Assembly (NCBI RefSeq): GCF_002952775.1
Contig: NZ_CP025066.1
Span: 620,001 to 684,000 of the forward strand
Reading direction: 5' to 3'
From: Halalkaliarchaeum desulfuricum
GTDB lineage: Archaea; Halobacteriota; Halobacteria; Halobacteriales; Haloferacaceae
Length of the DNA stretch: 64,000 nucleotides
Part shown: positions 2,499-62,240 of the stretch, piece by piece
Layout: each line of letters starts with the position of its first letter
Numbering within the stretch: position 1 is the first letter of the stretch
The notes under the pieces: model-generated
Databases searched by the model: none
Told to the model about the DNA's origin: nothing
What the model saw: only the letters and a program-made list of their open reading frames with translations
Translations under genes and position numbers: made by a program

Positions 2499-2719
2499 TT
2501 TCCTGGGCTTCAAAAGGCAGTCGGTACCATCACCGCGATATGTGTGCTGGTTCGCATTGGTTTGCTCCGATCGAATTACGTAATTGGATTGACTGCCGGT
2601 AGCTACACCGCAAGATATGCCCGATAGTAAAGACCTGGCCTCACCTGGACAAAGGGCGATCGAGCTTTAGAAATTGATGGAACCGGGGGATGGTTGGTCG
2701 GAGGTAGATCGGTTGATAG

Positions 2720-3478
2720 TTATCTTCTCTCAGTATCAACTGTCCCGCTTTTGTTGCGAGTTCGGCCGAGTTTGTCGTAAAGCCAGACTCGAAGCCTTTC
2801 CATAGCCCTGTTGAAACGTGGAACCCGCGATCGGATGTGACTGCTTCGCCAGACTACCTCGCCGGTGAGATCAATCGCGTATAAGAGTTTCTCAGTTTGG
2901 TCATCGATGACATACAGGCGATCACCGGAGTCGTCAAAGGCGATTCCGTTTCTCCGTCCGTGTTCGATTTCGTGTCGGACCGTCCGTTTGCCGGTCTCGG
3001 TTTCATAGACGTACACACTGCCGTCCGGGTTCAGCGTCACGACGCTGGCATAGGCCCCGTCATCGGTAATGGCTGTCCCGTGAACGTTTGAATTGAATGC
3101 GTCGGCGACGACCTCACTGCCGGTAGCGTCGATGATTACAACATCTCCTCCAGAGGATTTGATACTCCCGGCATCAACCACGATAGCTGTGCCGTCGTCA
3201 GCAATGCGCGCCTCGGTCGGCCGTTCAAATGGCTGCGTGGTAACAAGTTCTTCTCGATGGAAGACAAATATACGACAGCTACCGCCGTCCAGAGATCGAC
3301 CGAAGGCGATTAACCAATCCCCGTTTGGGGAGGTGATCTGGCTGCATTCGAATCGGTGATTGTTGTAGGAAACCTCCCGACTTTCGCCATGGTCGAACTG
3401 CCAGGTAAGCTCCGAGACGTCAGGGGGTTCCTCGTCGGTAGAACCGGACTCCCCCTGTCGGCGTGACGAGAAAGTCAT
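2720..3478 (-). CDS. Hypothetical beta-propeller-like protein
   Basis: 252 aa, acidic, without a signal peptide. It has several recurring beta-blade-like segments of the type 'ITDDGAYASVVTLNPDGSVYVYETETG' split by turns, such as DDSGDRLYVIDDQTEKLLYAIDLTGEVVW. These resemble WD40/YVTN or PQQ-like propeller repeats. About four blades are visible, fewer than a closed propeller needs, so it may oligomerise or be truncated. The last 45 residues are basic and helical (RFNRAMERLRVWLYDKLGR). It sits alone between convergent hypF and the phn operon. I do not recognise a specific function. Confidence 0.6.
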   Translation of the reverse strand: MTFSSRRQGESGSTDEEPPDVSELTWQFDHGESREVSYNNHRFECSQITSPNGDWLIAFGRSLDGGSCRIFVFHREELVTTQPFERPTEARIADDGTAIVVDAGSIKSSGGDVVIIDATGSEVVADAFNSNVHGTAITDDGAYASVVTLNPDGSVYVYETETGKRTVRHEIEHGRRNGIAFDDSGDRLYVIDDQTEKLLYAIDLTGEVVWRSSHIRSRVPRFNRAMERLRVWLYDKLGRTRNKSGTVDTERR

Positions 3479-3753
3479 ATTCTATACTAACGACCGATGA
3501 TCAAAATACCTGGTACGCTGGGGTGAGGGATCCGCCATTGTAAGAGCCATCCTTCACGACATAAGCCTATGACTTGTTTTTTTGGAACACATAGTGTTGG
3601 AAGGGCGAGTTACCAGGAGATCGTACGAACCAGATTTCAAGGGAGCATGGTAATTCGGGAAAGAGCACATGTCGGATCGGGGGGTGAATTTCTGACCGCT
3701 ATAACTCACACATCTGGAGACACTATCAACTGTGTCAACTTTTCGTCCGGTAT

Positions 3754-4569
3754 TCAACTCACTTTCTTTCGGAAGTAGGCTGAGAGGAGTTCACTGATTA
3801 TAACGATCCCGAGAATCGCAAAGAGGACGGTGAGGACGCCCCTCCAGTTCAAGAAGTTGACTTGAGTGATCAACTCCATACCGATTCCGCCAGCACCGAC
3901 AAACCCGATAACCGTCGCTTCCCGGACGTTAATGTCCCATCGGTAGGTAGAGATGCCGACGAAGAGTGGCTTTATCTGTGGGACGACGCCGTAGAGGAGG
4001 ATAAGTGGACCTGACGCACCCACTGCTCGGATCCCTTCGACCTGACCCGGATCGATTTCTTCGATACCTTCTGCAAGCAACTTCGCACAGAACCCGATCG
4101 ATCGGAACGCGACAGCAAAGACACCCGCAAGTGCTCCAGTCCCGAACATGACCACGAAGATCAGCGCCCAGATGATGACATTCACCGATCGGGAAGCGAC
4201 AATGATGAATTTCCCAAGACCATAGGTGAATTTATTGGGGGTCGTGTTTTCGGCGCCAATGTAGGCGACAGGAGCCGCCATGATTAACGCCAGGCCTGTG
4301 CCAAGGATGGCGATGTTGACTGTATCTATCAATGGGCCTATTATTTCTGCAGAATAGGCGACGTCTGGTGGGACCATTCTGACAATCAGATCCCAAAGGG
4401 CCCAGGGAGCGTCAATAACGTATTCATACCGGATATTCAGCTCCCACCAGGAGAGTACGCCGATAACCAATGCAACCAAGACCAGGACATATCGAACAAG
4501 CTGATATTTTGAGTCGTATTTCTTCCACTCTCCTTCCTTGACACCGGATTGTGCGTCTGGGTGTGACAT
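3754..4569 (-). CDS. phnE: Phosphonate-type ABC transporter permease (PhnE family), second copy
   Basis: 271 aa integral membrane protein with about six hydrophobic segments. The permease coupling (EAA) loop is visible as SKLLAEGIEEIDPGQVEGIRAVGA-like sequence, followed by VVPQIKPLFVG and YRWDINVREATVIGFVGAGGIG, typical of PhnE. I start at the ATG at 4569, which overlaps the stop of the upstream permease by one base (TAATG), rather than at an in-frame GTG 24 bp upstream. It is the last gene of phnD-C-E-E, and the two permeases probably form a heterodimeric channel. Substrates in this family include phosphonates, phosphite and phosphate esters; the sequence does not tell which. Confidence 0.9.
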   Translation of the reverse strand: MSHPDAQSGVKEGEWKKYDSKYQLVRYVLVLVALVIGVLSWWELNIRYEYVIDAPWALWDLIVRMVPPDVAYSAEIIGPLIDTVNIAILGTGLALIMAAPVAYIGAENTTPNKFTYGLGKFIIVASRSVNVIIWALIFVVMFGTGALAGVFAVAFRSIGFCAKLLAEGIEEIDPGQVEGIRAVGASGPLILLYGVVPQIKPLFVGISTYRWDINVREATVIGFVGAGGIGMELITQVNFLNWRGVLTVLFAILGIVIISELLSAYFRKKVS

Positions 4570-5384
4570 TACTTTACCCTCCTTCGCCACCAAGCACTCG
4601 TTGCCTCTCCAACCAGAACCACAGCGATTATTGCCAGAATGATGGTCGCGCTCAGGTCGTAGTCATAGTTGTCGAAGGACGTCAATAGCGTCTGTCCAAT
4701 GCCCCCAGCGCCGACGATACCGATGATTGTCGCTGCGCGAATATTGATGTCCCACCGGTAGATGGCAAGTCCGATGACCCGTGGCATTACTTGGGGTGCG
4801 ACGCCATAGAGTAATACCTGTAAGGTACTTCCACCGGTGGCCCGTATCGCATCGACTTGCCCTGTGTCGATATCCTCCAGATCTTCTGCCAACAATTTCG
4901 AAAAGAAACCAGGAGTTGCAAAGACCAGTGCAATCACGCCCGCAAGTGGGCCGAAACCAACTGCGATCACCGCGATGATTCCGAGCACGAGTTCGTGGAG
5001 ACCACGAGAAATCGAAACAATTGCTCGCCCAACGTAATACACTGGCCTTGGAACCAGATTCTCCGCGGCCATCACGGCCACAGGGGTACTCAGGGTGACT
5101 CCGATCAATGTCGCCACGATGGCCATCGCAATACTTTCAATCATCCCTTCCCAGACTCGGTCCGTCGCAGTCGGACTCAAATCAGGCGGATACATCCCCG
5201 AGACAAGACTGTAGGCGCCCTCAATTCCCGCCAGTAGTCGCTCCAGACCGATACGCATCTCCCACGCGCTCCACAAAACAAACAGGATTATCACTGCGTA
5301 AATCAACCACTTCACCGTTTTATTGTAGAAAACGGTCGGTCGTTCCCATGTCGAGGGGACAGCCTCACTGGATTCACCAGTCAT
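4569..5384 (-). CDS. phnE: Phosphonate-type ABC transporter permease (PhnE family), first copy
   Basis: 271 aa membrane protein, paralogous to the downstream permease. The shared signature is LLAEDLEDIDTGQVDAIRATGG, then VAPQVMPRVIGLAIYRWDINIRAATIIGIVGAGGIGQTLL. It lies 43 bp after phnC and is joined to the second phnE by a one-base TAATG overlap, implying translational coupling. Together with PhnC and PhnD it makes a complete importer. No C-P lyase gene (phnG-M) or phosphonatase is next to it, so use for phosphite, organophosphate or another oxyanion is equally possible. Confidence 0.9.
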   Translation of the reverse strand: MTGESSEAVPSTWERPTVFYNKTVKWLIYAVIILFVLWSAWEMRIGLERLLAGIEGAYSLVSGMYPPDLSPTATDRVWEGMIESIAMAIVATLIGVTLSTPVAVMAAENLVPRPVYYVGRAIVSISRGLHELVLGIIAVIAVGFGPLAGVIALVFATPGFFSKLLAEDLEDIDTGQVDAIRATGGSTLQVLLYGVAPQVMPRVIGLAIYRWDINIRAATIIGIVGAGGIGQTLLTSFDNYDYDLSATIILAIIAVVLVGEATSAWWRRRVK

Positions 5385-47442: not shown

Positions 47443-48600
47443 CTACGAACAGTCCATACATTGAATTCCATTGTTAACGGTCGCAAGTTGAATCTCTCTA
47501 GAGAGCGGCCGGTTGCAAAGATCGCAGTCGATATCTTCCGTAACCCCAACACCACTCCCATATCCGATCGTCAAAGTCACCGAAGCGACATCATCGGCTA
47601 GTTCGAATTCGATGTCACCGCGCTCATACTGAACTTCAGTGACAGTAACAGGGGTAACAATCACTTCTAGCGCATGTCGGTCACGGATCTCACGCTGTTG
47701 GTTCGGATATCCCTGTTCGCGTCGGCGACGCAACTCTGTGAGGTCGGCATCCATCTCCTCAAGTTCCGATCTGAGCTCCCGTCGTTCTTGGAGTACCTCC
47801 ACCCGGTCTTCCTGGTCCACGTTTTCGATCGTCTTGCTCAGATCCTCGATCTGTGACTGAAGACGACCGAGCTTTGCTTCTAACTCCTCCTCTCGTTGTT
47901 GTTGCAGTTGCCGATACTCTTCGAGTTCGGCGTCGGCAGCGCGTGAGGCTTCTCGATGAATCTCATCGATCATCGGCCGAATATCGGAAACAAGCGATTC
48001 ACGAGATGCGTCCACCAATTGCTTTATGCGTTCCGGATCGATTGTGACCCCACTTGTAGAGAGGGAGGTGTTTCCCGGCTTCGTCAGGTCTAGAAGCGTT
48101 CCATCAATATTCGGAAGGACCTCTCCCGAGCGAACGTCGATTCCGATTCCGCGAAGGAACTCCTGCTGATATTCGCTCACGGTTTCGACACTTACTCGAA
48201 AGAGTATGACCAGAGCACTCCGATCGTAATATGGTGTGAACTGGACATCGGTGACCTCGACGTCGCTCTCGCGCAGCCAGTCGGGAATTATGACATCCGT
48301 ATCGGCGGATTCGATCGTGACGTTTCCAACCGGTGCGCGATCCGCGGCGTCATCGAGAACACGCTGAAAGAACGAACTTTCCGGGTGCAGGAGCTCAGCA
48401 TCCTCACCCGCTCCCTCCGTAGAGTCACAAACGAGGGTGAACTCTCCTCTGGGTAGTTTCGTATCGACATCTGATGGAATCGTTATTTCCCACTCTTCAG
48501 CATGAGTTTTCACGTTTACCTGGCAGCCGAGCGATCGAAGATACCGTTCGGTGAAGTCCTCGACGACAGACTGTGTGATGGGGATCGAAGCGTCAGTCAT
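47443..48600 (-). CDS. Coiled-coil protein with C-terminal CxxC zinc-finger-like end, partner of the SNF2 helicase
   Basis: About 385 aa from the ATG at 48600, which overlaps the helicase stop by 8 bases. The N-terminal half is a beta-rich acidic domain with no family I know. The middle has a coiled coil (about 210-300, AADAELEEYRQLQQQREEELEAKLGRLQSQIEDLSK and ELRSELEEMDADLTELRRRRE). The end has CDLCNRPLSREIQLATVNNGIQCMDC, a CxxC-x(19)-CxxC metal site. The gene overlap points to a complex or shared task with the helicase, possibly DNA surveillance or defence. Confidence 0.7.
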   Translation of the reverse strand: MTDASIPITQSVVEDFTERYLRSLGCQVNVKTHAEEWEITIPSDVDTKLPRGEFTLVCDSTEGAGEDAELLHPESSFFQRVLDDAADRAPVGNVTIESADTDVIIPDWLRESDVEVTDVQFTPYYDRSALVILFRVSVETVSEYQQEFLRGIGIDVRSGEVLPNIDGTLLDLTKPGNTSLSTSGVTIDPERIKQLVDASRESLVSDIRPMIDEIHREASRAADAELEEYRQLQQQREEELEAKLGRLQSQIEDLSKTIENVDQEDRVEVLQERRELRSELEEMDADLTELRRRREQGYPNQQREIRDRHALEVIVTPVTVTEVQYERGDIEFELADDVASVTLTIGYGSGVGVTEDIDCDLCNRPLSREIQLATVNNGIQCMDCS

Positions 48601-50347
48601 TGCCGGCCCCCAGATCGAACCCTTCGAAAACCTCACTGTTGAACTCCTCTAGCTTCTCGGCGAGATCGCGTTGCTCCTGGAGATCAACCGCCATCGCGTC
48701 GAAGTCGTTCTCTAGATCGACTTCCGAATCCGCATTAACCAACCGCTCGAAGATCTCGTCCTCGAAGCTTCTTCCGGACTCTTCCATTCTCGTGAGGATC
48801 TCGCTCAGTTCGCCGACGCTCTGCTGGAAGAGATCGATCTTGTGATACAGCCGTTCGAGAACGTACTCCTCAACGGTATCTTTCAACGCCATGTTGAACA
48901 CGTAGACTTGTCGGTTTTGCCCGATCCGATGGATTCGACCGATTCGTTGCTCGACGCGCATGGGATTCCATGGGAGATCCCAATTAACAATTATATTACA
49001 AAACTGTGCGTTACGTCCCTCCGACATTGCGTCGGTTGAAACGAGAATTCCACCCTGCTCTTCGAAGTTTTTGATGATCTCCTCTTTCTCCTGGCTGGAG
49101 TGGCCACCATGGAACGAATGGACAGTGTATCCCTCCGACGCCAATCGTTCCGCGACTCGACGTTGTGTCGCTTTGAACTGCGTGAAGACGATCACTCGTC
49201 CCTTCTCGACGGAATCCCGTGCTTCTTCAACGATATCGAGCAAGCGTTCTTGTTTGGTGACTGTGTCAACGTTCTCGATCAGGTCGAGAATCGACTCCAG
49301 TTCTTCAGTTTGTGTGAGTTCGGATTGGTCGTCGAGTCGTCGCTGGATCGTCGCCTTTAGCGCCTCGGGACTGCTGACGACCTCCTTTTGGAGGAGCATC
49401 AACACCAGTTTCTGCCCTTGGTCCTGACTGTATGCTCCCTTGACGTAGTCGGATACGGCTCGGTAGAGTTCGCGTTCTTCCGGCGATGGATCGAATTTTC
49501 GGGTGTCGATCCGTCGTTCGGTGAAGTCCACATCCGTGTCCTCACGACGGTTCCGGATCATCACCTTGTTCAGTCGGTCTTGGAGTTCGTTCCGGTTGAC
49601 GAGCGTCTCTTGCTCACTGTCCACGAAGTAGTGATGGAACACGTCACGGGTTCCGAACAGGCCCGGGCGGAGCAGTGAGACGATGTTGTAGAGATCGGTG
49701 AGTTCGTTCTGTATCGGCGTCGCCGTGAGGAAAAACGCGTAGTTGTACGAGAGTTGGTCGATCAGATCGTAGCGATCCGTCTCCTCGTTTTTGACGTAAT
49801 GGGCTTCGTCGAGGACAAGCACGTCCCAGTCGCGTTTGAGCACGGTTTGACGATGTCTGTCGCTTTTCGCCGTGTCGATGCTGGCGATGATGTAGTCGTG
49901 GCTGTCGAACCCGCGAAAGTCGTCGTCGTAGTTAGATACGAACTCCAGGCCGAACTTCTCCCGGAGTTCCGCTTGCCACTGTTTGGCCAGTTGGGCCGGC
50001 GTCAGGATGAGCACGGAATCGTCGGTCTCCCGGAAATGCATCTCTTTGAGGATCATTCCGACTTCGATCGTCTTGCCGAGTCCAACCTCGTCTGCGAGCA
50101 ACGCTTTCCCGTCCATCTCGAACAGCGCACGATACGCGGCATCGACCTGATGTTCGAGCATCTTGACCGCGTTCTCGTCAAGCTGTTTCAGAGAGCGAAG
50201 CTCTGAATCCGGCTGTCCTGCCTGCAATCGAGCCGCCTGAACCGAGTAGAGATGCTGTTCCCCCCGGGATCCTTCCGTTAGGTAACGACAGATCGCATCC
50301 GAGTCCTCGTGAGTGATCTCGATGTCCACGAGGTCGTAATCGCCCAT
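48593..50347 (-). CDS. SNF2/RapA-type helicase-like ATPase
   Basis: 584 aa superfamily-2 ATPase. Motif I is LADEVGLGKTIE, II VLDEAHYVKN, III FLTATPIQN, IV FTQFKATQRR, V VSTDAMSEGRNAQFCNIIVNWDLPWNP and VI EQRIGRIHRIGQ. All are intact. The helicase core is compact, without a bromodomain or large insert. The C-terminal end is helical and acidic (DFDAMAVDLQEQRDLAEKLEEFNSEVFEGFDLGAGND). Such enzymes move along double-stranded DNA or displace bound proteins. Genes of this type occur in DISARM-like and other defence clusters. It forms a two-gene unit with the coiled-coil protein. Confidence 0.9.
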   Translation of the reverse strand: MGDYDLVDIEITHEDSDAICRYLTEGSRGEQHLYSVQAARLQAGQPDSELRSLKQLDENAVKMLEHQVDAAYRALFEMDGKALLADEVGLGKTIEVGMILKEMHFRETDDSVLILTPAQLAKQWQAELREKFGLEFVSNYDDDFRGFDSHDYIIASIDTAKSDRHRQTVLKRDWDVLVLDEAHYVKNEETDRYDLIDQLSYNYAFFLTATPIQNELTDLYNIVSLLRPGLFGTRDVFHHYFVDSEQETLVNRNELQDRLNKVMIRNRREDTDVDFTERRIDTRKFDPSPEERELYRAVSDYVKGAYSQDQGQKLVLMLLQKEVVSSPEALKATIQRRLDDQSELTQTEELESILDLIENVDTVTKQERLLDIVEEARDSVEKGRVIVFTQFKATQRRVAERLASEGYTVHSFHGGHSSQEKEEIIKNFEEQGGILVSTDAMSEGRNAQFCNIIVNWDLPWNPMRVEQRIGRIHRIGQNRQVYVFNMALKDTVEEYVLERLYHKIDLFQQSVGELSEILTRMEESGRSFEDEIFERLVNADSEVDLENDFDAMAVDLQEQRDLAEKLEEFNSEVFEGFDLGAGND

Positions 50348-51136: not shown

Positions 51137-54100
51137 ATGAACTCCGGCAAGGGCCCTTCGATCTCCCGACGACGGTCACTGCAACTCTTACCTCTATCAC
51201 TTATTGGACTTGGATTAGGCACCACTCGTGAGGCTGCCTCCGAAGGAGTCCGCTTCAATCCGATCAGTGATAATGTCACCATCCCTGCACCAAATCTGGA
51301 GGAGGCTTTTTTGCCGACCATGAAAGGAACTCCACTAGTTCCGAGATACGAGGTTGATACTGGGTGGGATGAACTCTCTTATGACGAATTTCTCGATGTT
51401 CAGCTTCAGTTCGATCCCGATGTATTTTTGTTCCATCGCAACGCCGGGCGCAGAGGCTCAATCGAAATTGACGGAATTCCGGATAACTTCCGCGAGCTTG
51501 GTCGCATGGCGATTGATACTGGAATCCCCGGACTAATGACCCGATCAAATACGCTGTCACCTTGGCAAGCGCAACCCTGGTATGAAGGACTAAACGAGGA
51601 AGAGCAGTTCACCTATCCTGATGGGTCGGCGGTGACAGAGATCGACGCACTCGTAGCGAAAAACCGAGACGGTGACCCCCATGTTTTAAAAGAAGAGGAT
51701 CAGGGAAGCGTCAAAGTGCTCTCTCCTTTCGCAGACGGAACCATTGAGTTCCTTGCTACGCCGATGATTGAGGCGGTCGAATTCGGATATTCCACCTTCT
51801 TTATCGACTTCGCTAAACTACAACGGCTGGGCGGTCTCGATCATTCGGTTTGGGCGGAATCAGCGTTTCGTGACCACCTCGAAAAGTTGTCGTCTAATGA
51901 ACTTCGAACCCTGGGACTGGAAGATGATGATGTCGATTCGTTCGACGTATCGGAATACTTGACGGACCTTGAACTTGGTAATGATGAACCGCCTGCAGTG
52001 GACCCCATCTACAGGGAATTCCTCCTCCTGCAGCACAAGGCGATTAAGCAGCAGTTCGAACAGGTCATCGACACCGTCCGGTCGGCAGACCTTCCAACGG
52101 AACGTGTTGAATTCTATGCTAACGGGTTCATGGGAGACGACTTCCGGAACACCCCAGACCTCATGCACATTCACGATCCATTTGACCTTGTATTTCTTGA
52201 AGATACACCCTCGGTTCCACCCGATTTTGTCAGGGATTTCGTCTACAAGTTTGGGGTTGCGGCTGGCCATTTCCAAAAACCGGTCATCCTCCACCGGTCC
52301 ATGTGGGAAGGATACGACGCTCTCCAAGGGTTAGATCCGGCGGATGAGTACCCGACCCTATTGCAACTCCAAGTCGCTGAAGCGTACGCTAATGGATGTC
52401 GGAAACCACCTAATTTGTCGGGGGGAGCGGGCCACACTCACCGAGAAAAAGTGGTCAATAACTGGGTGCGTGAAGATGGCACAGTTCCGGACGTCTTGCT
52501 GGACTTCGTTAAGTTTGTGCGAGTTCACGAGCGATTCCTGATGGACCCCGATCCGGAGAACGATGTCGCTGTCGTCTATTCGCTGCCGACGATGCTCTGG
52601 CATTACGCACCCGAGTGGGACTGGTACGCAATGGATCATATTGAGTCGTTCAGGGGCGCAGTACAGATCCTACGTCGGTTGAATTACGCGTACGATGTCA
52701 TCATCTTTGGCCATGATGACCTCTGGGATGACTCTGAACAACTAGACAGACTCGCTCAGTATGATGCAGTATTGTTCCCAAACGTTGCGGCAATCAGTGA
52801 CGAGCAAGTAATGGCTCTTAACGAGGCACTAGATCAGGGTACGACTATGATCGCTACCGGAGGGTTCCCGTCCCGCGACGAGCAATATATGACCACTATC
52901 GACACCGGCGAGTCGGTGACCCACAGGAATTCAATCGTATTTTCCGACGACTTGACGTCGTCAGCGTTGGACACTACGGTTCCGGATGATCTGAACGCGG
53001 CGTTAACAGATTCTGTCACTCGAACGATCCGGTTCTCGGGGGACATTGACGTCGGCCTGACGATCATGGGACAAGCCGACAACGAACAGACTATCATACA
53101 TTTCGTGAATTACGAATACAATCCGACTGACGATTCCATGGCCGTGCATACTAGTCTCAACGTCACAATCGACTTGGAAGCCGTTACTGGTGTTCACTAC
53201 TACTCGCCGAAAGGCCGTGGCGAACTCTCAACGGATGTCAATGACGATGGATATCAGGTGACGATTCCTCGACTAGAAACGTGGGTGTTCCTAGTTGTCA
53301 ATCACTCTACTGAGGATCTTATGCCGCCCGGAAGTGAAGATGAAGCACGAGCCGCGATCGTCGAGGCTGATTCCGCGATCTCGACCGCAGAAGACGAGGG
53401 ACGGACGTACCGGCTGTACCGCGCAACCCGTCGACGTGAGAACGCGGAAGCCTACTTCGATCACGAGTCTTACAAACTGGCTAAGGAGAACGCAACCAAG
53501 GCCAAACAGGAGGCTGAAATGGCCGTTGCGCCGCCCTCTGTCGGATTTTATACCGGACATGATCCGAGAGATCTGTACAGATCAGACGTCATCGATGACT
53601 TGGCCTGGTATTTCCGCGGTGTTGAGTTCGACACTGTGGATCACCTTTCCGATCTCGAAGATGGATCATTCAACCTTTTAATCGTCCCGCCAGCTCTGCC
53701 TTGGAAAGGGAGCAGATACGAATTCAGCACCGCAGATTTAGACTTATTAGAGGAGTTTGTGGACGATGGGAACGGATTATTGATTGTTGGCAGGGGGGAC
53801 ATAGACTCCGACATCAATCTGCTCTTGGAGCGATTCGATATCGAAGTCGATCTGGCGCCAATTGACAGTGAAAGTCGAGACGTTTACGCACGAACTATCC
53901 TTCACCCCCTCAGTAAGTTAACCCCGAAGTTGGATATGACCTTGGGGACTCCGCTATCTACAGTCCCAAACGAAATGACGGTTTTAGCAGAAATTCCGGA
54001 TGATTCGAACGCGTTTCTGGATCATTCTGGAACCGGGACGAAGGACATGGAGGATGAATCTGCTGCTGGAAAACCTGTGTTTGGTTATCGGCCCTACGGT

Positions 54101-54433
54101 GACGGCACCGTCACTTACTTTGGGAACAACACGTTGTTCGAGGATATCAACCGAGACAACTATTCATTAGAAAGAGAGGTTGTGTGGAACTATATCGACG
54201 TTGTCGGACAGGTCCTAGCCCGAACCGATGCAGGAGAATCAAGAGAAAATAATCTCAATGATGAGGATGATACAGATGAATCACAAGACCAAACGGACAG
54301 TGAGGACATCGAGTCTGCGAAGACAGAACAAGTACCAGGATTTGAAATCGGGACAGCAATTGCTGCAATATGTGGGACGTTGTACCTACAAAAACGTCGG
54401 TTCGAAGATAGAAGAAGAGATGAAGATTCGTAA
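51137..54433 (+). CDS. Very large secreted glycosidase-like protein with PGF-CTERM anchor
   Basis: 1098 aa. A Tat-type N-terminus (SISRRRSLQLLPLSLIGLGLG) exports the folded protein. The first 480 residues look like a TIM-barrel glycoside-hydrolase-like domain (FFIDFAKL, FMGDDF, VILHRSMWEGYDA). A domain like the beta-galactosidase trimerisation fold follows (YDAVLFPNVAAISDEQVMALNEAL, about 540-640) with beta-rich parts. A helical pair (ENAEAYFDHESYKLAKENATKAKQEAE) then precedes a second alpha/beta region. The C-terminus is VPGFEIGTAIAAICGTLYLQKRR, a PGF-CTERM signal processed by archaeosortase. The likely role is a cell-surface polysaccharide hydrolase. The exact glycoside family is not assignable by eye. 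Confidence 0.75.
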   Translation: MNSGKGPSISRRRSLQLLPLSLIGLGLGTTREAASEGVRFNPISDNVTIPAPNLEEAFLPTMKGTPLVPRYEVDTGWDELSYDEFLDVQLQFDPDVFLFHRNAGRRGSIEIDGIPDNFRELGRMAIDTGIPGLMTRSNTLSPWQAQPWYEGLNEEEQFTYPDGSAVTEIDALVAKNRDGDPHVLKEEDQGSVKVLSPFADGTIEFLATPMIEAVEFGYSTFFIDFAKLQRLGGLDHSVWAESAFRDHLEKLSSNELRTLGLEDDDVDSFDVSEYLTDLELGNDEPPAVDPIYREFLLLQHKAIKQQFEQVIDTVRSADLPTERVEFYANGFMGDDFRNTPDLMHIHDPFDLVFLEDTPSVPPDFVRDFVYKFGVAAGHFQKPVILHRSMWEGYDALQGLDPADEYPTLLQLQVAEAYANGCRKPPNLSGGAGHTHREKVVNNWVREDGTVPDVLLDFVKFVRVHERFLMDPDPENDVAVVYSLPTMLWHYAPEWDWYAMDHIESFRGAVQILRRLNYAYDVIIFGHDDLWDDSEQLDRLAQYDAVLFPNVAAISDEQVMALNEALDQGTTMIATGGFPSRDEQYMTTIDTGESVTHRNSIVFSDDLTSSALDTTVPDDLNAALTDSVTRTIRFSGDIDVGLTIMGQADNEQTIIHFVNYEYNPTDDSMAVHTSLNVTIDLEAVTGVHYYSPKGRGELSTDVNDDGYQVTIPRLETWVFLVVNHSTEDLMPPGSEDEARAAIVEADSAISTAEDEGRTYRLYRATRRRENAEAYFDHESYKLAKENATKAKQEAEMAVAPPSVGFYTGHDPRDLYRSDVIDDLAWYFRGVEFDTVDHLSDLEDGSFNLLIVPPALPWKGSRYEFSTADLDLLEEFVDDGNGLLIVGRGDIDSDINLLLERFDIEVDLAPIDSESRDVYARTILHPLSKLTPKLDMTLGTPLSTVPNEMTVLAEIPDDSNAFLDHSGTGTKDMEDESAAGKPVFGYRPYGDGTVTYFGNNTLFEDINRDNYSLEREVVWNYIDVVGQVLARTDAGESRENNLNDEDDTDESQDQTDSEDIESAKTEQVPGFEIGTAIAAICGTLYLQKRRFEDRRRDEDS

Positions 54434-54709
54434 ATAGAACCTACCAAACACAACATAACAACGGTATCAATCTGGTGGATTGCTGGTAAACTATAATACG
54501 TTCATTTACAAGATTACCTATGGAGCCCGCTACCTGAGCTAACCACGGCAACGACTGTATTGTTTTTGCTCGTTCAGTGATACCTAATCGTTGTTCTTGG
54601 CGGAAAATCAGCAGCAGGAACTGAGTCGGCAGACAGATCTACCGACAGGCGGGGAGAACGTGAACTGAGAGAGCTGTCGCTCACGCTGCCTGCATCCGGC
54701 CACTGAGCG
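54434..54709. other. Intergenic region before the ISH3 remnant
   Basis: About 275 bp between the end of the large secreted-protein gene and the recognisable part of the transposase. It may contain the element's left end, but I found no inverted repeat. Confidence 0.3.
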
Positions 54710-55816
54710 CCGCCGCACCTTCGACTCCGGGATTCTCCGTCAAACGGTTCTGCAAGCCGCTGTCGATCAGAAGTCCATCAAAGCCGTCACCGACACTACT
54801 CGTGAAAGCTACCCCGACGATTACACCCTTACACAACTGCACACCGTTCTAGCAGATGACCTCGAATCCACCGTCAACACCCTCTTTGCCCAACAGGCGG
54901 CGATGATCCTCGGGCCGGGGCCGAGGATCATCTGCCTCAACTTCGTCGATATCCACTACCACGGCTGTCCACACGCTGAGGCTGGTGAACTCTGCCACAC
55001 GAAACCCCGCGATGGAACCTCCCAGTGCCATCGCTACCTCGTCGGATTCGTCCTCCGTCGAGCCAAACCACTCATCGTTGCAGTCACGCCAGTCCGTGGT
55101 GATGAATCGAAAAGCGACGCGATCGAGCGACTGTTCGACCACGTCGCGGCTCTGCCGTTCACCGTGGCTGGTCTCCTCGCCGACCATGGTTTCTACAACG
55201 ACGCGTCAATCAAGCGACTGGATGCCGTGGCACCAGTCGCTCTTCCGATCATCCGCCGTGGGAAGCAGATGGCCGAGAAACTGGACACGACGGTCTCCTA
55301 CTGGACGGAGTACGTGATGTACAAAGGAAGCGAGCGGGAACTGCACTTCCCGCTCGCGGTCTGTGTCTCCTACAAGCAGGGCAATCGGGGCAAACACGGC
55401 TTGCTCGTGCGGGCGTACGTGGCGTGCGATCTGGCCGATGTACGCCGAAAGAAGTCGAAGCTCTCTACCAGCACCGCTCAGCCATCGAGACAGCCTTCCG
55501 GACGATGCGCGAAGCGCGTGCGCGTACGAATACAACTGATCCGGCCGTTCGGTTGTTGTTCATCCTCGTGAGCTTCCTGCTGCGGAACTTGTGGGTGATC
55601 ATCCGATGGGGCGTGCTCGCCACGCCGCGGCGCGGCGGGCGAGCACTCCCCGTCTGGTTCCGTTTCGAGGTATTCGGGAGTGGGTTGATCACGCTCTCGA
55701 CGAGACGTTACGCCGGAAATGGGAAGCGCCGACCAACGGTGTCGGCATCCCGACAACCTACAGCCAGCTGGACGCGGGCTGAGGCCGCCCGCGTCCAGCG
55801 ATCGTCTCGTGAATAG
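54710..55816 (+). pseudogene. ISH3-family transposase, frameshifted and lacking a start
   Basis: The frame is open from about 54710 without a start codon. It carries ISH3-type stretches: FDSGILRQTVLQAAVDQKS, then NFVDIHYHG, LLADHGFYND, LPIIRRGKQMAEKL. Near 55440 it breaks (VACDLAD, then another frame). The second frame continues as TPKEVEALYQHRSAIETAFRTMREAR (the E of the DDE triad), LATPRRGGRAL and a stop at 55814-55816. At least two lesions make it inactive. It separates two large secreted-protein genes. Confidence 0.75.
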
Positions 55817-55867
55817 AGCGATAGCTGTAGGGTTCGTATAGATAACTTCTGAAGATCCCTCCGACAT

Positions 55868-55878
55868 AATTTATTTAA
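55868..55878 (+). promoter_or_regulatory. TATA box of the 893-aa PGF-CTERM gene
   Basis: TAATTTATTTA is centred about 29 bp upstream of the ATG at 55902, indicating a leaderless transcript and arguing against the TTG start at 55881. Confidence 0.6.
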
Positions 55879-55901
55879 GATTGCCAAGGAATGATCGGAT
55901 C

Positions 55902-58583
55902 ATGTTAGACGATCCGGTTCACCCTCCACGTAGATGTCTTCTGCAGAGTATCGGGGGGATTATCGCGTTATCACAATTCACTGGGATTGGAGGCGGACAA
56001 GAACCCGGAGTCACCGTCAATAAAGACTCTAATGATGTCACGTTATCTAATGAGTTCATCGGCGTAGAATTTAAGCGAGAAAACGGTGGCATCAAACAAA
56101 TTGAAGCACACCAGACAAACACCTACCTTCGTGATCCAGACGGACCCGCACCCGCCGGAATTTGGGAACTTACGTTTTACCATCCAGAATTTGACCATCT
56201 TTCAACTCAATCTTGGCTAAGTGGTGAGCCAAATATTCAAACATCTCAGCAATCGGATATGGCACAGGTCCAACTTTCGTGGGATGTTGATGTCCCAATC
56301 AGGACACATGAAGACGAGAGCTACCAAGAGATGTTTACTGGTGTCGTAACGGTGACTACGACGATCTTCGCTGAAGAACCCACTCTGTATTGGACCGTTG
56401 ACATAGAGAACAATGCTTCTGTAGCTATTCGTGGGGTTCGATGCCCCCATATCACTAATATTACCGAACTTGATTCAAACGGCACGGATGCGATTGTTGC
56501 CCCGATTAGGATGGGTCGTCGGGTCGAAAATCCCATTCCACTGAGTCACAGATACGCTGTTCGGTATCCGTCAGGATTCGGGACGATGCAGTTTACAGCA
56601 TACACCAACCCAAATGGTGGATTCTACTTTTCGGCCCAAGACACTGGTGGGCACATGAAAGAGTTTACCTGGGCATCACAATGGACGGGTGATGAGCACA
56701 TACACTTTCACCATGAGTATAAAACACCACAGCGGCCTGGTGAAGACATCTCTATCCCATATGATACGGTGTTAAGTCCTCACCAAGGAGATTGGTATGA
56801 CGCTGCTGATAGATACCGTGAATGGTTCGGGAATAATGGAATGTTGCCGGAATCTGAGCTTTCGGTTCCAGATTGGTACCGTGAGCGGGGAGCAACAATC
56901 AGAGGGAGAAGTTATCAACGCGAAGAACAATCCGACGAGCATGATTTGACGTTTGCTGAGACTGCAGAGGGAATCATTCAAGCACGGAAACGCCTCGGTA
57001 CGCCCATCCAATTTGACTGGTGGGGTTACCAAACGTATGGAAATATTGGGTTCGGTGATTGGTTTCCTCCAAAAGAAGGTTGGGAGTCATTTCGGGAGAC
57101 TGTCGAAGAGTTGAAAGATCACGATATTTTGCCGTATGGAATTACAAACGTTGCAAACCTCTATGAATCCTCTGATGTTTGGAAAGAACAACCCGAAGAA
57201 GCAGAGACCTGGGTACGCCGGAATCCCGATCAATCAAAAAAGAGCCATATCAGCTCACAGGGAATTAAAACGTTCCGTCCGCACTTTACTTCGAAAGGAT
57301 GGCACGATGTAATCGTAGAAAACTCACAGATTTGGGTAGAGGAAGGGGCAAAACAGTTATGGATTGATGGATTTCCCTGGTATAAACCATTTCGGGAATG
57401 TTATGCTGAATCACATGAGCATCCACCAGGACTCTTTGGAAGTTGGTGGGCAAATGAGTGTAAGCTCAAATTTAATAAGTTACGAGAGAAAATTCATGAA
57501 ATTGATGACACTATTTTATTTAGCGGTGAAGGGATTACAGACTACTTTTTAGGCGAGTTGGATATTCAGCATAGCAGAGATGTAGTCATTGAAACACGTG
57601 GATCTATGGGATTTGAGTCTGAGGTTATCCCACTTACTCAATACACGTTTGGGGACTTTCTTTTGATGCGTGGTATTTTACCTTACTGGCTGAAGACGAA
57701 ACCGTTCACACCAACACCGAAGTATCTCCGCTTGGCCTTAGCGCGGTCAGCAAAATGGGGAGCACTTCCAAATATCCGAGTCGCCCTACGTTCTTACCAC
57801 TTCCAACAAGACGAATTGTATGATGAGGACTTGATGGAATATGCCTCACGAATAGCATGGCTGTTCTCTCTTCATGGCAGACGATTCTTAACTGGTGGAG
57901 AACTACTTCGGAATGTATCAATTGAGTCACCGTCAACAGAAGTAACAGCCACAATAGGAGACCAGACTGAAGGTGAAGAACGGAATTTTATAACATCAAG
58001 TATTCACTCATCAGCCTGGGAAACCGCTGAAGATACAGAAAGAGCAGTATTACTAACAAATATCACAGAAGAGACTGAAACAGTATATGTTTCGCTAACC
58101 AATCATATTTTTGAGGGGGTTGACGAGCCTCTATTTTATGTCATAAGAAATGGAAAGTACAGTAGGCTTAATAATGCGGATACAAGAAAGGTTGAGCTGG
58201 AACTCGGTTTCAATGATGTCGTCATGCTGGTGGCAGCACCAAATACGGACGACCGAGATGCTGCTCTTAACCGCGTAGTTGAGGCTCAAGAGCAATTCTC
58301 ACCGAACGAAGAGGGAACTGAGTTGATCGCTGCACAGCGTGCGTTTGTTGATGGTGAATTTGATGAAGCAATCAGTATAGCAGAAGATGCTATTGATCAG
58401 GCCACAGAAGAAAGTGATGAAGAAGCCGTCGATTCAGAAGATCTTGATGAATCACAAACGCCCGAATACAGTGATACTAGGGTTCCGGGTTTCGGTATCG
58501 GCAAGACACTAGTTGGACTTGGAGGAACTGCATATTTTCTCAAACGTAAACTAAATATTGACAAAAAAGACAATACAAATTAA
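55902..58583 (+). CDS. Large secreted glycosidase-like protein (DUF6259-like) with PGF-CTERM anchor
   Basis: 893 aa. A twin-arginine-type N-terminus (PPRRCLLQSIGGIIALSQF) is followed by a beta-sandwich (about 45-320). A TIM-barrel domain resembling clan GH-D/GH36 enzymes follows (IQFDWWGYQTYGNIGFGDWFPP, LWIDGFPWYKPF with a candidate catalytic Asp, LFSGEGITDYFL). A C-terminal beta domain comes next (AVLLTNITEETETVYVS), then a helical repeat (AAQRAFVDGEFDEAISIAEDAIDQA) and VPGFGIGKTLVGLGGTAYFLKRK, a PGF-CTERM signal. The gene is visibly AT-richer than most of the window. It probably hydrolyses an extracellular glycan. Confidence 0.75.
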   Translation: MLDDPVHPPRRCLLQSIGGIIALSQFTGIGGGQEPGVTVNKDSNDVTLSNEFIGVEFKRENGGIKQIEAHQTNTYLRDPDGPAPAGIWELTFYHPEFDHLSTQSWLSGEPNIQTSQQSDMAQVQLSWDVDVPIRTHEDESYQEMFTGVVTVTTTIFAEEPTLYWTVDIENNASVAIRGVRCPHITNITELDSNGTDAIVAPIRMGRRVENPIPLSHRYAVRYPSGFGTMQFTAYTNPNGGFYFSAQDTGGHMKEFTWASQWTGDEHIHFHHEYKTPQRPGEDISIPYDTVLSPHQGDWYDAADRYREWFGNNGMLPESELSVPDWYRERGATIRGRSYQREEQSDEHDLTFAETAEGIIQARKRLGTPIQFDWWGYQTYGNIGFGDWFPPKEGWESFRETVEELKDHDILPYGITNVANLYESSDVWKEQPEEAETWVRRNPDQSKKSHISSQGIKTFRPHFTSKGWHDVIVENSQIWVEEGAKQLWIDGFPWYKPFRECYAESHEHPPGLFGSWWANECKLKFNKLREKIHEIDDTILFSGEGITDYFLGELDIQHSRDVVIETRGSMGFESEVIPLTQYTFGDFLLMRGILPYWLKTKPFTPTPKYLRLALARSAKWGALPNIRVALRSYHFQQDELYDEDLMEYASRIAWLFSLHGRRFLTGGELLRNVSIESPSTEVTATIGDQTEGEERNFITSSIHSSAWETAEDTERAVLLTNITEETETVYVSLTNHIFEGVDEPLFYVIRNGKYSRLNNADTRKVELELGFNDVVMLVAAPNTDDRDAALNRVVEAQEQFSPNEEGTELIAAQRAFVDGEFDEAISIAEDAIDQATEESDEEAVDSEDLDESQTPEYSDTRVPGFGIGKTLVGLGGTAYFLKRKLNIDKKDNTN

Positions 58584-59278: not shown

Positions 59279-59794
59279 TTATGCAGATATTTCCGATTCA
59301 CATCGGACAACTAAGCGACGGATGTTTGTGTCGCCAAACAGGCTTGTTGTAATGCCACTACCTTCAATCGTAACGGTGAGTTCAACAATATCGGTCCCCT
59401 CGTCCTCACAGGCGATTTTCCCACAAATATCAGCAGAGTCGCCGGAGCCGAATGATCCTTCATCCCACTCGACATCAACAACGTTGGGCTCTTCGTTGTC
59501 TTGAGTCGCTACTTTCACGTCCACAATCTCTATGGCGGCGTCCTCTTTGAAGCGGTTCTTAATCGAGACCAAAGATCGCTTCTCGTTTTCACCCGCAGTG
59601 ACGACGACTTCAGGGAGATTTTCGTCAGAATTTTCGTCCGCCTGCACCTCATATCCAACAAGCGACTCATCGTCAGGGCCGACCTCGGCGTTTACGGCGC
59701 GCTCGACAGTTCCACTGCTGAATGCATCTGTACCGAGCGTGAGCGCACCGGCGCTCGTGCCGCCAAGGAGTAGGATGAGGGTTCGTCGGTTCAT
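59279..59794 (-). CDS. Secreted DUF1102-like protein, 171 aa
   Basis: 171 aa. The signal-like start (NRRTLILLLGGTSAGALTLGTDAFSSG) is followed by TVERAVNAEVGPDDESLVGYE. That is the motif shared by haloarchaeal DUF1102-type exported proteins (GAF/FSxxxVERxVNVEVxDDxxxLLGL). The rest is beta-rich with two cysteines near ADICGKIACEDE. The function is unknown. It lies downstream of a paralog on the same strand (148 bp gap) and may be expressed with it. Confidence 0.7.
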   Translation of the reverse strand: MNRRTLILLLGGTSAGALTLGTDAFSSGTVERAVNAEVGPDDESLVGYEVQADENSDENLPEVVVTAGENEKRSLVSIKNRFKEDAAIEIVDVKVATQDNEEPNVVDVEWDEGSFGSGDSADICGKIACEDEGTDIVELTVTIEGSGITTSLFGDTNIRRLVVRCESEISA

Positions 59795-59942: not shown

Positions 59943-60614
59943 TCAGTCAGCGGTGATCGTTATATCGCCACTCATGTCGTTGCGGCGAATTTCGCTTTGG
60001 GCGTAGAAGCTAAGTACCACATATACAGATTCGCCGGGGTCGACGTCTTCGATCGACACCTCGGCGTAATAGTCATCACCTTCGGGGTCGGTGTCTGCGG
60101 GGGCGTTCCCGTCAGAATCGACGAGGATTAACCCGACATTTGCCTTCCGGTTCCTCGAAGGATTATCTCCCTCGAATCGAACGGTAACGTTCTGCTTCTG
60201 CGTGCCTTGATTCCGAATGCTGAATGCGTGATCAGTTTCAATAACATCGTCCTCCTGCTGCACGAGTAAGCGATCTTCCCAGTGTGACGGCTCGTCGATA
60301 TTCTTGGGAGGAGTTCCGAGCTGGTATGTGGAACCAGCGTTAATCCCTGTATCCATGCCATTATAGCCGTTACTGAAATCGATTACAAGCGCTTCTGCAT
60401 CAGCGTCATACCCTCCATATTGTCTCGATTCTGTCGTTACGATGTCGCCTGTCTCCGGTCCCGGTTCTAGACCAAGCAGGCTGACGGAGTCATCAGTGAT
60501 TTCAACGTTAACCGCCCGCTCGACCTCGGCGGCACTGAACGCACCACTACCCATTGCAGCCGCCCCGCCGGCGGCGAGCGATCCCATACCGATCACGAAC
60601 TTGCGTCGTTCCAT
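59943..60614 (-). CDS. Secreted DUF1102-like protein, 223 aa
   Basis: 223 aa from the ATG at 60614, giving ERRKFVIGMGSLAAGGAAAMGSGAFSAAEVERAVNVEITDDSVSLLGLE, an export signal plus the DUF1102-type start. A GTG at 60671 would add 19 residues before the signal and is less likely. The body is beta-rich with ligand-like loops (HWEDRLLVQQEDDVIETDHAFSIRNQGTQKQNVTVRF, DVDPGESVYVVLSFYAQ), like a small cell-surface beta-sandwich. It is paralogous to the next gene downstream. The role is unknown. Confidence 0.72.
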   Translation of the reverse strand: MERRKFVIGMGSLAAGGAAAMGSGAFSAAEVERAVNVEITDDSVSLLGLEPGPETGDIVTTESRQYGGYDADAEALVIDFSNGYNGMDTGINAGSTYQLGTPPKNIDEPSHWEDRLLVQQEDDVIETDHAFSIRNQGTQKQNVTVRFEGDNPSRNRKANVGLILVDSDGNAPADTDPEGDDYYAEVSIEDVDPGESVYVVLSFYAQSEIRRNDMSGDITITAD

Positions 60615-61160
60615 AGGTTCTCTCACCTTCGTTTGCACGCACGCCCATGGCGCGGAACCGCACCGCACCACCCGAGCGCGCTCAGTCCTTCATATACCCC
60701 AAACCCATACTGTATTGACCCACCAGAGAAATCTCAAGCCGTCTTTGTGAGTTGTCGCTGGTTGTTCACGCCGTTCTTGAGTATCGGGAGTTGTGTTTAG
60801 TGACGTATTTTATCCCATTACGCTAAGCCTGACCGCTGACTTATGAATTCTCTGACAAAAAACGAGGTGAATTAATGGAGATAACGAAAACCCCCCGACA
60901 TCGAAAGTACATTTTTGTGGGGCTTATATCGGTTCAACGACTGATCTGGCTCAGGCTTAACCTTCGATCGATTATAGGTAGCTCAGACGGTGCTTGAAAC
61001 CGTCCACGGGATATCACATATGATGGTTCCACCGTTATGGAGGACTACCCGTGTCGCCTTCCGGTAGATGCAAGATGTCTTCTTTAGGACGCCGACCGCC
61101 AGTTTCCTGGAAGAACGCCCTTTAACTTTGCAAGAGATCAGTAAGATACATCGAAGTCCT
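60615..61160. other. Intergenic region between divergent genes
   Basis: About 545 bp. It contains a GTGTTTAGTGA sequence at about 60793-60803 that matches 9 of 11 bases of the IS6 inverted repeat, possibly a relic end. No gene is recognised. Confidence 0.35.
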
Positions 61161-62240
61161 ATGGACGCTTCACGCGAAACACTTATTTCGGAATTGCAGT
61201 CGATTGTCAGCGAACTGGGGCACGTACCACTCCCGGAAGAGCTCGACGAGTACAGTTCCCACGGACTCGGCGCCTACATGGATGCGTTCGGATCATGGCA
61301 TAACGCAATTACGAGCGCCGGATTCGAACAACCAATGGGGCGACGGATACCAGATAACGAACTGCTCGCCGAACTTCGGCGTGTAGGTGAAGAGCTTGAG
61401 AAAACCCCATCGGAAGGGGACATGACTGAACATGGAGGATATGGCGCAGCCACGTATCGAAACCGGTTCGATTCCTGGTCAAACGCGGTAGCAGCCGCGG
61501 GTTTCGATCCACATAAAAGTCGGAAAGAACGCTCACGTGAGGAACTCATCTCAGAACTTCAGCGGTTGGCCGACTCCCTCGATCGGTCTCCATCATACAC
61601 GGACATGGAGGATCAGGGCAACTACGCCCCAGAAACGTACAACAACGAGTTCGGATCCTGGAATGAAGCCCTCGATGCTGCAGGGCTAGAGAGACGCAGG
61701 GTCCAAAAACAATCTCTTGACGAACTGACCACCGAGTTGCAGAGACTGTCAGACCAACTCGAACGCCCGCCACGGAGCATCGACATCGAAGAGCACAGTG
61801 ACTATAGCGTCGGTGTCTTTTACAACCGCTTCGGCTCGTGGGAATCGGCTCTCGAAGCGGCCGGAATCGATCCGCCGCAATCACCGCCCCGAGAGAAACT
61901 CATCGAGGAACTGCAGACCATCGCTGCCGAAACCGATGGCCGGCCTACGGTTGATAGGGTGAATGAGATGGGGACGTATAGCATCTATCAGTATCGCAAA
62001 GAGTTTGGATCATGGGGAGAGGCGGTTGAAGCCGCTGGCTTCGAGTCACGCGAACCGTCACGACAAATCCCGACTGAGAAACTCCTCGATGAGTTGCAGT
62101 TCCTTGCTGATGATCTCGGTCGAACCCCCCGGATGGACGATATGCAAAAGGACGGTTCCTTCAGTCCGACGACATACTACAATCGGTTTGGTTCGTGGAG
62201 TACGGCAATCGAAGCTGCCGGGCTTTCGGAGATGGACTGA
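61161..62240 (+). CDS. Six-repeat protein of the homing-endonuclease-associated repeat type
   Basis: 359 aa from the ATG at 61161. The whole protein is six consecutive units of about 58 residues. Each follows the plan [LR]EELxxELQRLxxxLxRxPxxxDMxxxGxYxxxTYxxxFGSWxxAxxAAGF. The unit is the homing-endonuclease-associated repeat that normally accompanies HNH-type nucleases and binds DNA. No nuclease domain is present, and the sixth repeat ends at the C-terminus. It may be a pure DNA-binding protein, an architectural factor, or a part of a split system. Confidence 0.85.
   Translation: MDASRETLISELQSIVSELGHVPLPEELDEYSSHGLGAYMDAFGSWHNAITSAGFEQPMGRRIPDNELLAELRRVGEELEKTPSEGDMTEHGGYGAATYRNRFDSWSNAVAAAGFDPHKSRKERSREELISELQRLADSLDRSPSYTDMEDQGNYAPETYNNEFGSWNEALDAAGLERRRVQKQSLDELTTELQRLSDQLERPPRSIDIEEHSDYSVGVFYNRFGSWESALEAAGIDPPQSPPREKLIEELQTIAAETDGRPTVDRVNEMGTYSIYQYRKEFGSWGEAVEAAGFESREPSRQIPTEKLLDELQFLADDLGRTPRMDDMQKDGSFSPTTYYNRFGSWSTAIEAAGLSEMD

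Follow-up and report, generated by a model that had tools for sequence, protein, structure and literature searches.

A predicted surface glycosidase related to GH96 alpha-agarases and a neighbouring DUF6259 protein in the haloarchaeon Halalkaliarchaeum desulfuricum

Two long genes with predicted surface-protein products follow one another in the genome of Halalkaliarchaeum desulfuricum, and the question they raise is what these proteins do outside the cell and whether they do it together. The window analysed here, 64,000 nucleotides in all, covers bases 620001-684000 of this single-contig genome of 3.31 Mb. An earlier note on this DNA described two exported, PGF-CTERM-bearing, glycosidase-like proteins (here P0001 and P0002) that share a helical spacer, are separated by a dead ISH3 copy and may form a polysaccharide-degrading pair imported with an island. 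We consider it probable that P0001 is a surface glycosidase related to family GH96 and that P0002 is an independent surface protein of the DUF6259 family, the two being accessory genes and not a pair (Table 1).

Most of what the note had read directly from the letters was borne out, the exception being the shared helical spacer discussed below. Two long plus-strand reading frames are present at the positions it gave, and each protein has at its N-terminus a twin-arginine motif and, just after it, a hydrophobic segment (SRRRSLQLLPLSL in P0001, PPRRCLLQSIGGII in P0002), while its C-terminus combines a PGF motif, a second hydrophobic segment and a final basic part. These C-termini resemble those of the PGF-CTERM/archaeosortase A system, and another part of the genome has a gene for archaeosortase A (TIGR04125, E 2.5e-93, 312.5 bits, cut-off 75). 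The difference from that system lies in the scores: whole-protein Pfam scans gave PGF-CTERM 14.9 bits in P0001 and 15.9 bits in P0002, beneath the cut-off of 18.8 that local matches exceed, and the NCBIfam scores of both proteins also fell under that collection's own cut-off. Export and surface anchoring are the most likely fate of both proteins, as far as their two ends can be read. The ISH3 copy between the genes, 90 percent identical to another copy in the genome, can be called dead because its pieces are spread over three frames and the first 39 transposase residues are missing.

Leaderless haloarchaeal genes carry a TATA-like box about 27 nt ahead of the ATG, and the region upstream of P0001 contains a candidate leaderless promoter of this kind. 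The reading frame of P0002 can be opened at a TTG (55881), giving 900 aa with the same end at 58583. Given that a TATA-like TTTATTT precedes the ATG at 55902 by about 27 nt, this ATG is probably the start, and each gene seems to have a leaderless promoter of its own. No RNA families were found across the part of the window from 38 to 64 kb.

Table 1. Positions, within the window, of the features of P0001, P0002 and the DNA between them
Feature	Position	Strand	Remark
TATA-like box of P0001	51100..51112	+	TATTTATATTATT, read directly; ~27 nt upstream of ATG 51137
P0001	51137..54433	+	1098 aa; predicted exported and PGF-CTERM-anchored; GH96 alpha-agarase-related
Tat-like signal of P0001	51161..51220	+	SRRRSLQLLPLSLIGLGLG; RR invariant in 7 haloarchaeal relatives
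Putative catalytic barrel region of P0001	51254..52640	+	residues ~40-500, extent inferred; part matched to 9m0b residues 268-430
Asp224 of P0001	51806..51808	+	counterpart of Cm-AGA Asp994; aligned with KLMFD of 9m0b
Glu355 of P0001	52199..52201	+	proposed counterpart of Cm-AGA Glu1129
GATase-like domain of P0001	52640..52970	+	GH42 trimerisation type, PF08532; extent approximate
C-terminal beta-sandwich region of P0001	53050..53320	+	HFVNYEY ... LETWVFLV; third stretch matched, to 9m0b 681-770
Ala/Glu-rich helical stretch of P0001	53333..53536	+	residues 733-800
DUF4350 / IFT52-GIFT-like domain of P0001	53711..54139	+	residues 859-1001; PF14258, E 8.1e-7, 29.9 bits, cut-off 30.4
PGF-CTERM of P0001	54332..54400	+	Pfam local match 20.8 bits; cut-off 18.8
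Degenerate ISH3 transposase	54720..55779	+	
TATA-like box of P0002	55871..55878	+	read directly
P0002	55902..58583	+	893 aa from ATG; DUF6259 protein; predicted exported, PGF-CTERM
DUF6259 domain of P0002	56751..57680	+	PF19773; residues 291-600; E 3e-76, 256.8 bits, cut-off 28.7
Asp496 of P0002	57366..57368	+	QLWIDGFPW; candidate catalytic; invariant in 5 DUF6259 proteins, one bacterial
Glu550 of P0002	57528..57530	+	FSGEGITD; candidate catalytic; invariant in four archaeal members, alignment ambiguous in the bacterial one
PGF-CTERM of P0002	58482..58550	+	Pfam local match 21.5 bits; cut-off 18.8

The glycosidase-like character that had been proposed for both proteins is well supported for P0001, through a remote homology to GH96-type alpha-agarases, and plausible for P0002. 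Used alone against the PDB, P0001 matched no GH96 alpha-agarase, and a profile of seven haloarchaeal relatives placed the alpha-agarase 9m0b at the top (E 3.7e-9). Three related proteins from non-haloarchaeal archaea (711, 906 and 838 aa) came to light when 393 genomes of the phylum were searched; they are only 16-18 percent identical to P0001 and have the barrel, GATase-like and beta-sandwich parts in common with it. When these were joined to the seven haloarchaeal sequences, 9m0b again came first in the PDB, at E 7.9e-16 with the runner-up at 0.0017, and it was also first for the three proteins as a profile by themselves (E 1.4e-5). The matched stretches run from barrel to GATase-like domain to beta-sandwich in the same order as in 9m0b, the middle stretch being weak by itself. 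We take 9m0b to be a GH96 enzyme because Cm-AGA, the GH96 alpha-agarase of Catenovulum maritimum, has the identical KLMFDTQTNSTR segment. Profile comparison thus establishes homology between the P0001 family and alpha-agarase at that level; since P0001 finds no such match alone and the link rests on profiles, we call it GH96-related and not a proven member of GH96.

The resemblance to 9m0b and Cm-AGA takes in the aligned catalytic Asp, a Glu at matching spacing and the domain order, whereas the architecture around this core differs: P0001 is archaeal and has a Tat-like signal, a PGF-CTERM, a helical stretch and a DUF4350 domain. Cm-AGA carries CBM6 modules, an accessory feature that does not define the family, and a Pfam scan at E up to 5 found none in P0001. 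With GH42 beta-galactosidases, P0001 shares only the trimerisation domain PF08532, placed after the barrel, but the barrel itself matches alpha-agarase and not GH42. This domain was matched weakly in six of the seven haloarchaeal members (best E 3e-6) and is present in the other archaea as well. The DUF4350/GIFT domain is an accessory, since it is absent from two relatives of P0001 (L021 and L022). A structural model of P0001, made for residues 40-766 with one relative (L029, from Haloferax marinum, G245, which belongs to the same family as the source archaeon), had a mean pLDDT of 36.7, too low for fold comparison. L029 was the sole locus obtained from a scan of genome contigs, which kept the alignment shallow.

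In Cm-AGA, mutation of Asp994 and Glu1129, the catalytic pair, inactivates the enzyme, and the published primers, which we translated, give the contexts KLMF-D-TQTNSTR and TFLSG-E-LNLGA (PMC11311870). In the Cm-AGA model the two residues are separated by 5.79 Å. The segment of 9m0b that is aligned to the P0001 strand ending in Asp224 is identical to the Asp994 context. The profile alignment stops before Glu355, so the assignment of this residue rests on its invariance, its spacing and an LSGE-like motif. The distance from Asp to Glu is 131-137 residues in the ten archaeal proteins and 135 in Cm-AGA, and two of the proteins from other archaea have YLSGE or YISGE where Cm-AGA has FLSGE. Asp224, Asp350 and Glu355 are unchanged in all ten archaeal sequences; the catalytic acids whose absence the note had named as fatal to its reading thus have invariant candidates in P0001, Asp224 and Glu355.

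As we infer it from the sequence, P0001 would be a glycoside hydrolase that leaves the cell by the Tat route and stays on its surface through a tail processed by archaeosortase, with a catalytic core that shares its ancestry with GH96 alpha-agarase. In the barrel, Asp224 (as general base or nucleophile) and Glu355 (as general acid) could cut an alpha-type linkage, whether the polysaccharide is galactan-like or of another kind. A GATase-like and then a beta-sandwich domain would follow the barrel, and ahead of the anchor the haloarchaeal branch would have gained the helical stretch and, in many cases, a DUF4350/GIFT domain.

P0002 matches the DUF6259 model over nearly its whole length (positions 2-298 of 300), and beyond this domain it has a Tat-like signal, a beta-rich region in its N-terminal part, an Ala/Glu-rich stretch and a PGF-CTERM. 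The beta-rich region was seen ahead of the domain in a low-confidence model (residues 39-790, single sequence), whose mean pLDDT of 38.6 is too low for fold comparison. Our literature search found no paper naming DUF6259, and searches of the PDB with single proteins and two profiles returned chance-level matches only, with no solved relative. The layout of P0002, with its N-terminal beta-rich part, a presumed barrel and an Asp and a Glu about 50 residues apart, may resemble that of the GH101/GH129 alpha-N-acetylgalactosaminidases; no match to these families appeared in Pfam or the PDB. The conserved acids Asp496 and Glu550 would suit a glycosidase, a plausible role for P0002. On this view P0002 is a DUF6259 protein of the cell surface that works independently of P0001 and is itself most likely a glycosidase, which would act through Asp496 and an acid near Glu550, and this uncharacterised Pfam family now has candidate catalytic residues for mutation.

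Some further observations concern the DUF6259 family. Within residues 507-514 of P0002 (CYAESHEH, 57399-57422), Cys507, His512 and His514 are invariant in five DUF6259 proteins and possibly form a metal site. The sole bacterial DUF6259 protein found in the plasmid and phage searches is encoded on a Subdoligranulum plasmid. One apparent relative of P0002 (L003) was rejected, given that only the linker and PGF-CTERM were matched.

A different reading of both proteins, possible and deserving serious thought even if we do not favour it, is that their targets are not food polysaccharides but glycans of the archaeon itself, the exopolysaccharide or the S-layer glycans being trimmed or released. Anchoring at the cell surface fits such remodelling, and so do two gene neighbourhoods: a DUF6259 relative in another haloarchaeon (L025) lies near genes for a UDP-sugar dehydrogenase, a Bac_transf sugar transferase, a GT2 enzyme and a sulfatase, and a GH96-like relative lies in a region (L063) with GT2, AglB/STT3 and UDP-sugar dehydrogenase. 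However, these are the only two neighbourhoods of this kind. The other P0001 relatives stand, by inspection, among apparently unrelated genes, no glycan-synthesis genes were recognised beside P0001 and P0002 in the window, and the bacterial DUF6259 gene (L065), next to a BadF-type kinase gene and two SIS genes, looks catabolic. With the neighbourhoods mixed in this way, two pointing to glycan synthesis and one catabolic in appearance, there is room for self-glycan remodelling and foraging alike.

Two of these regions can be described further. The 906-aa protein of L063 (6923-9643) has N-terminal hydrophobic segments before its GH96-like part and is encoded about 5.5 kb from AglB/STT3. In L065 (Subdoligranulum variabile OY725868.1), the DUF6259 gene occupies 536-5080, and its neighbours, encoding a BadF-type ATPase/kinase and two SIS-domain proteins, hint at amino-sugar catabolism.

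The kinship of P0001 with GH96 also bears on the history of that family. Only nine alpha-agarases had been characterised by 2024, all of them in GH96 (PMC11311870), and, judged by title and abstract, none of the papers in our literature search that mention both GH96 and archaea deals with an archaeal member. Agar is unlikely to be the natural substrate of the relatives found outside haloarchaea. A broader proposal, which we regard as doubtful at present, is that the alpha-agarase (GH96) superfamily has a surface-anchored branch in haloarchaea and their relatives in the phylum, with archaeal glycans at the surface or outside the cell as its targets, and that the alpha-agarases of marine bacteria arose as specialists from an older glycan-processing family. 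An archaeal branch that combines identical catalytic residues with a different architecture would be a new place to seek high-salt alpha-galactan-type activities, and would make it testable how a rare family of marine enzymes originated.

Whether P0001 and P0002 work together is a separate matter. The earlier interpretation, two polysaccharide-degrading enzymes imported as a pair, was partly supported: that the proteins are glycosidase-like, exported and anchored is well supported for P0001 and plausible for P0002, whereas a functional pair now appears improbable. It would suit such a pair that the genes are adjacent and on the same strand, that both are low in GC (51 percent in P0001 and 45 percent in P0002, compared with 60.5 percent for the window's left part), that both proteins have anchor motifs and that neither gene was detected at the DNA level in the one congener compared (G318). 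Nevertheless, in a search of 341 genomes, six genes for P0001-type proteins were spread over five genomes besides the source, G318 having two of these genes, P0002-type proteins occurred in three others, and the co-occurrence that the note had suggested looking for was seen in no other genome; these surveys score few candidates per genome, and relatives may be missed. The insertion sequence lies between the genes, each of which has its own promoter-like site, and GC3 also differs (54 percent in P0001, 39 percent in P0002).

The shared helical spacer gives no support to a pair either. An Ala/Glu-rich stretch is found in both proteins, but the similarity between the two is no better than that of shuffled sequence: 255 of 2000 shuffles scored as high, as did 280 of 1000 with other limits. 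In BLASTP between P0001 and P0002, the sole significant segment was the acidic linker with the PGF-CTERM (E 7.7e-6), and the helical stretch of P0001 does not adjoin the anchor, the DUF4350/GIFT domain lying in between. P0001 and P0002 thus look like separate accessory genes and not a dedicated pair. Finally, it is quite unlikely that they are catalytically dead carbohydrate-binding or structural surface proteins retaining a glycosidase fold, as their several accessory domains and the absence of any reported activity for either archaeal branch in our literature search might suggest, because unneeded catalytic acids would drift, whereas Asp224, Asp350 and Glu355 are kept in sequences as distant from P0001 as the three from other archaea, and Asp496 in five DUF6259 proteins.

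As separate genes for a predicted GH96-related glycosidase and a DUF6259 protein, P0001 and P0002 may still belong to imported DNA. The right part of the window has a GC content of 51.5 percent, lower than the 60.5 percent of the left part, and the left part is collinear with G318 up to about 42 kb, mostly at 83-88 percent identity. The block that holds the two genes looks accessory in its composition and surroundings. The proposed island import is supported in part, by the low GC, by the failure to find either gene at the DNA level in G318 and by the end of synteny beside a recombinase gene; the two genes may have arrived in one event or in several. In the plasmid and phage searches, one haloarchaeal plasmid had a P0001 relative; two viral scans found no relatives.

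Several other genes in this part of the window were noted. Just past the end of the synteny with G318 lies a gene for a tyrosine recombinase (PF00589; 42811-43866, +). Downstream of P0002, two small, apparently exported proteins without a Pfam match (59279-59794 and 59943-60671, both -) have similar N-termini (RR, ...AFS...VERAVN), and a 390-aa protein (61068-62240, +) has six homing-endonuclease-associated repeats (PF18780, E 3.8e-120) and gave no match to an endonuclease domain. Upstream of P0001, an SNF2-type helicase gene (48593-50347, -) overlaps the next gene (47443-48636, -) at its start; the product of the latter has 397 aa and no Pfam match, and the two genes are possibly a two-gene defence-like unit.
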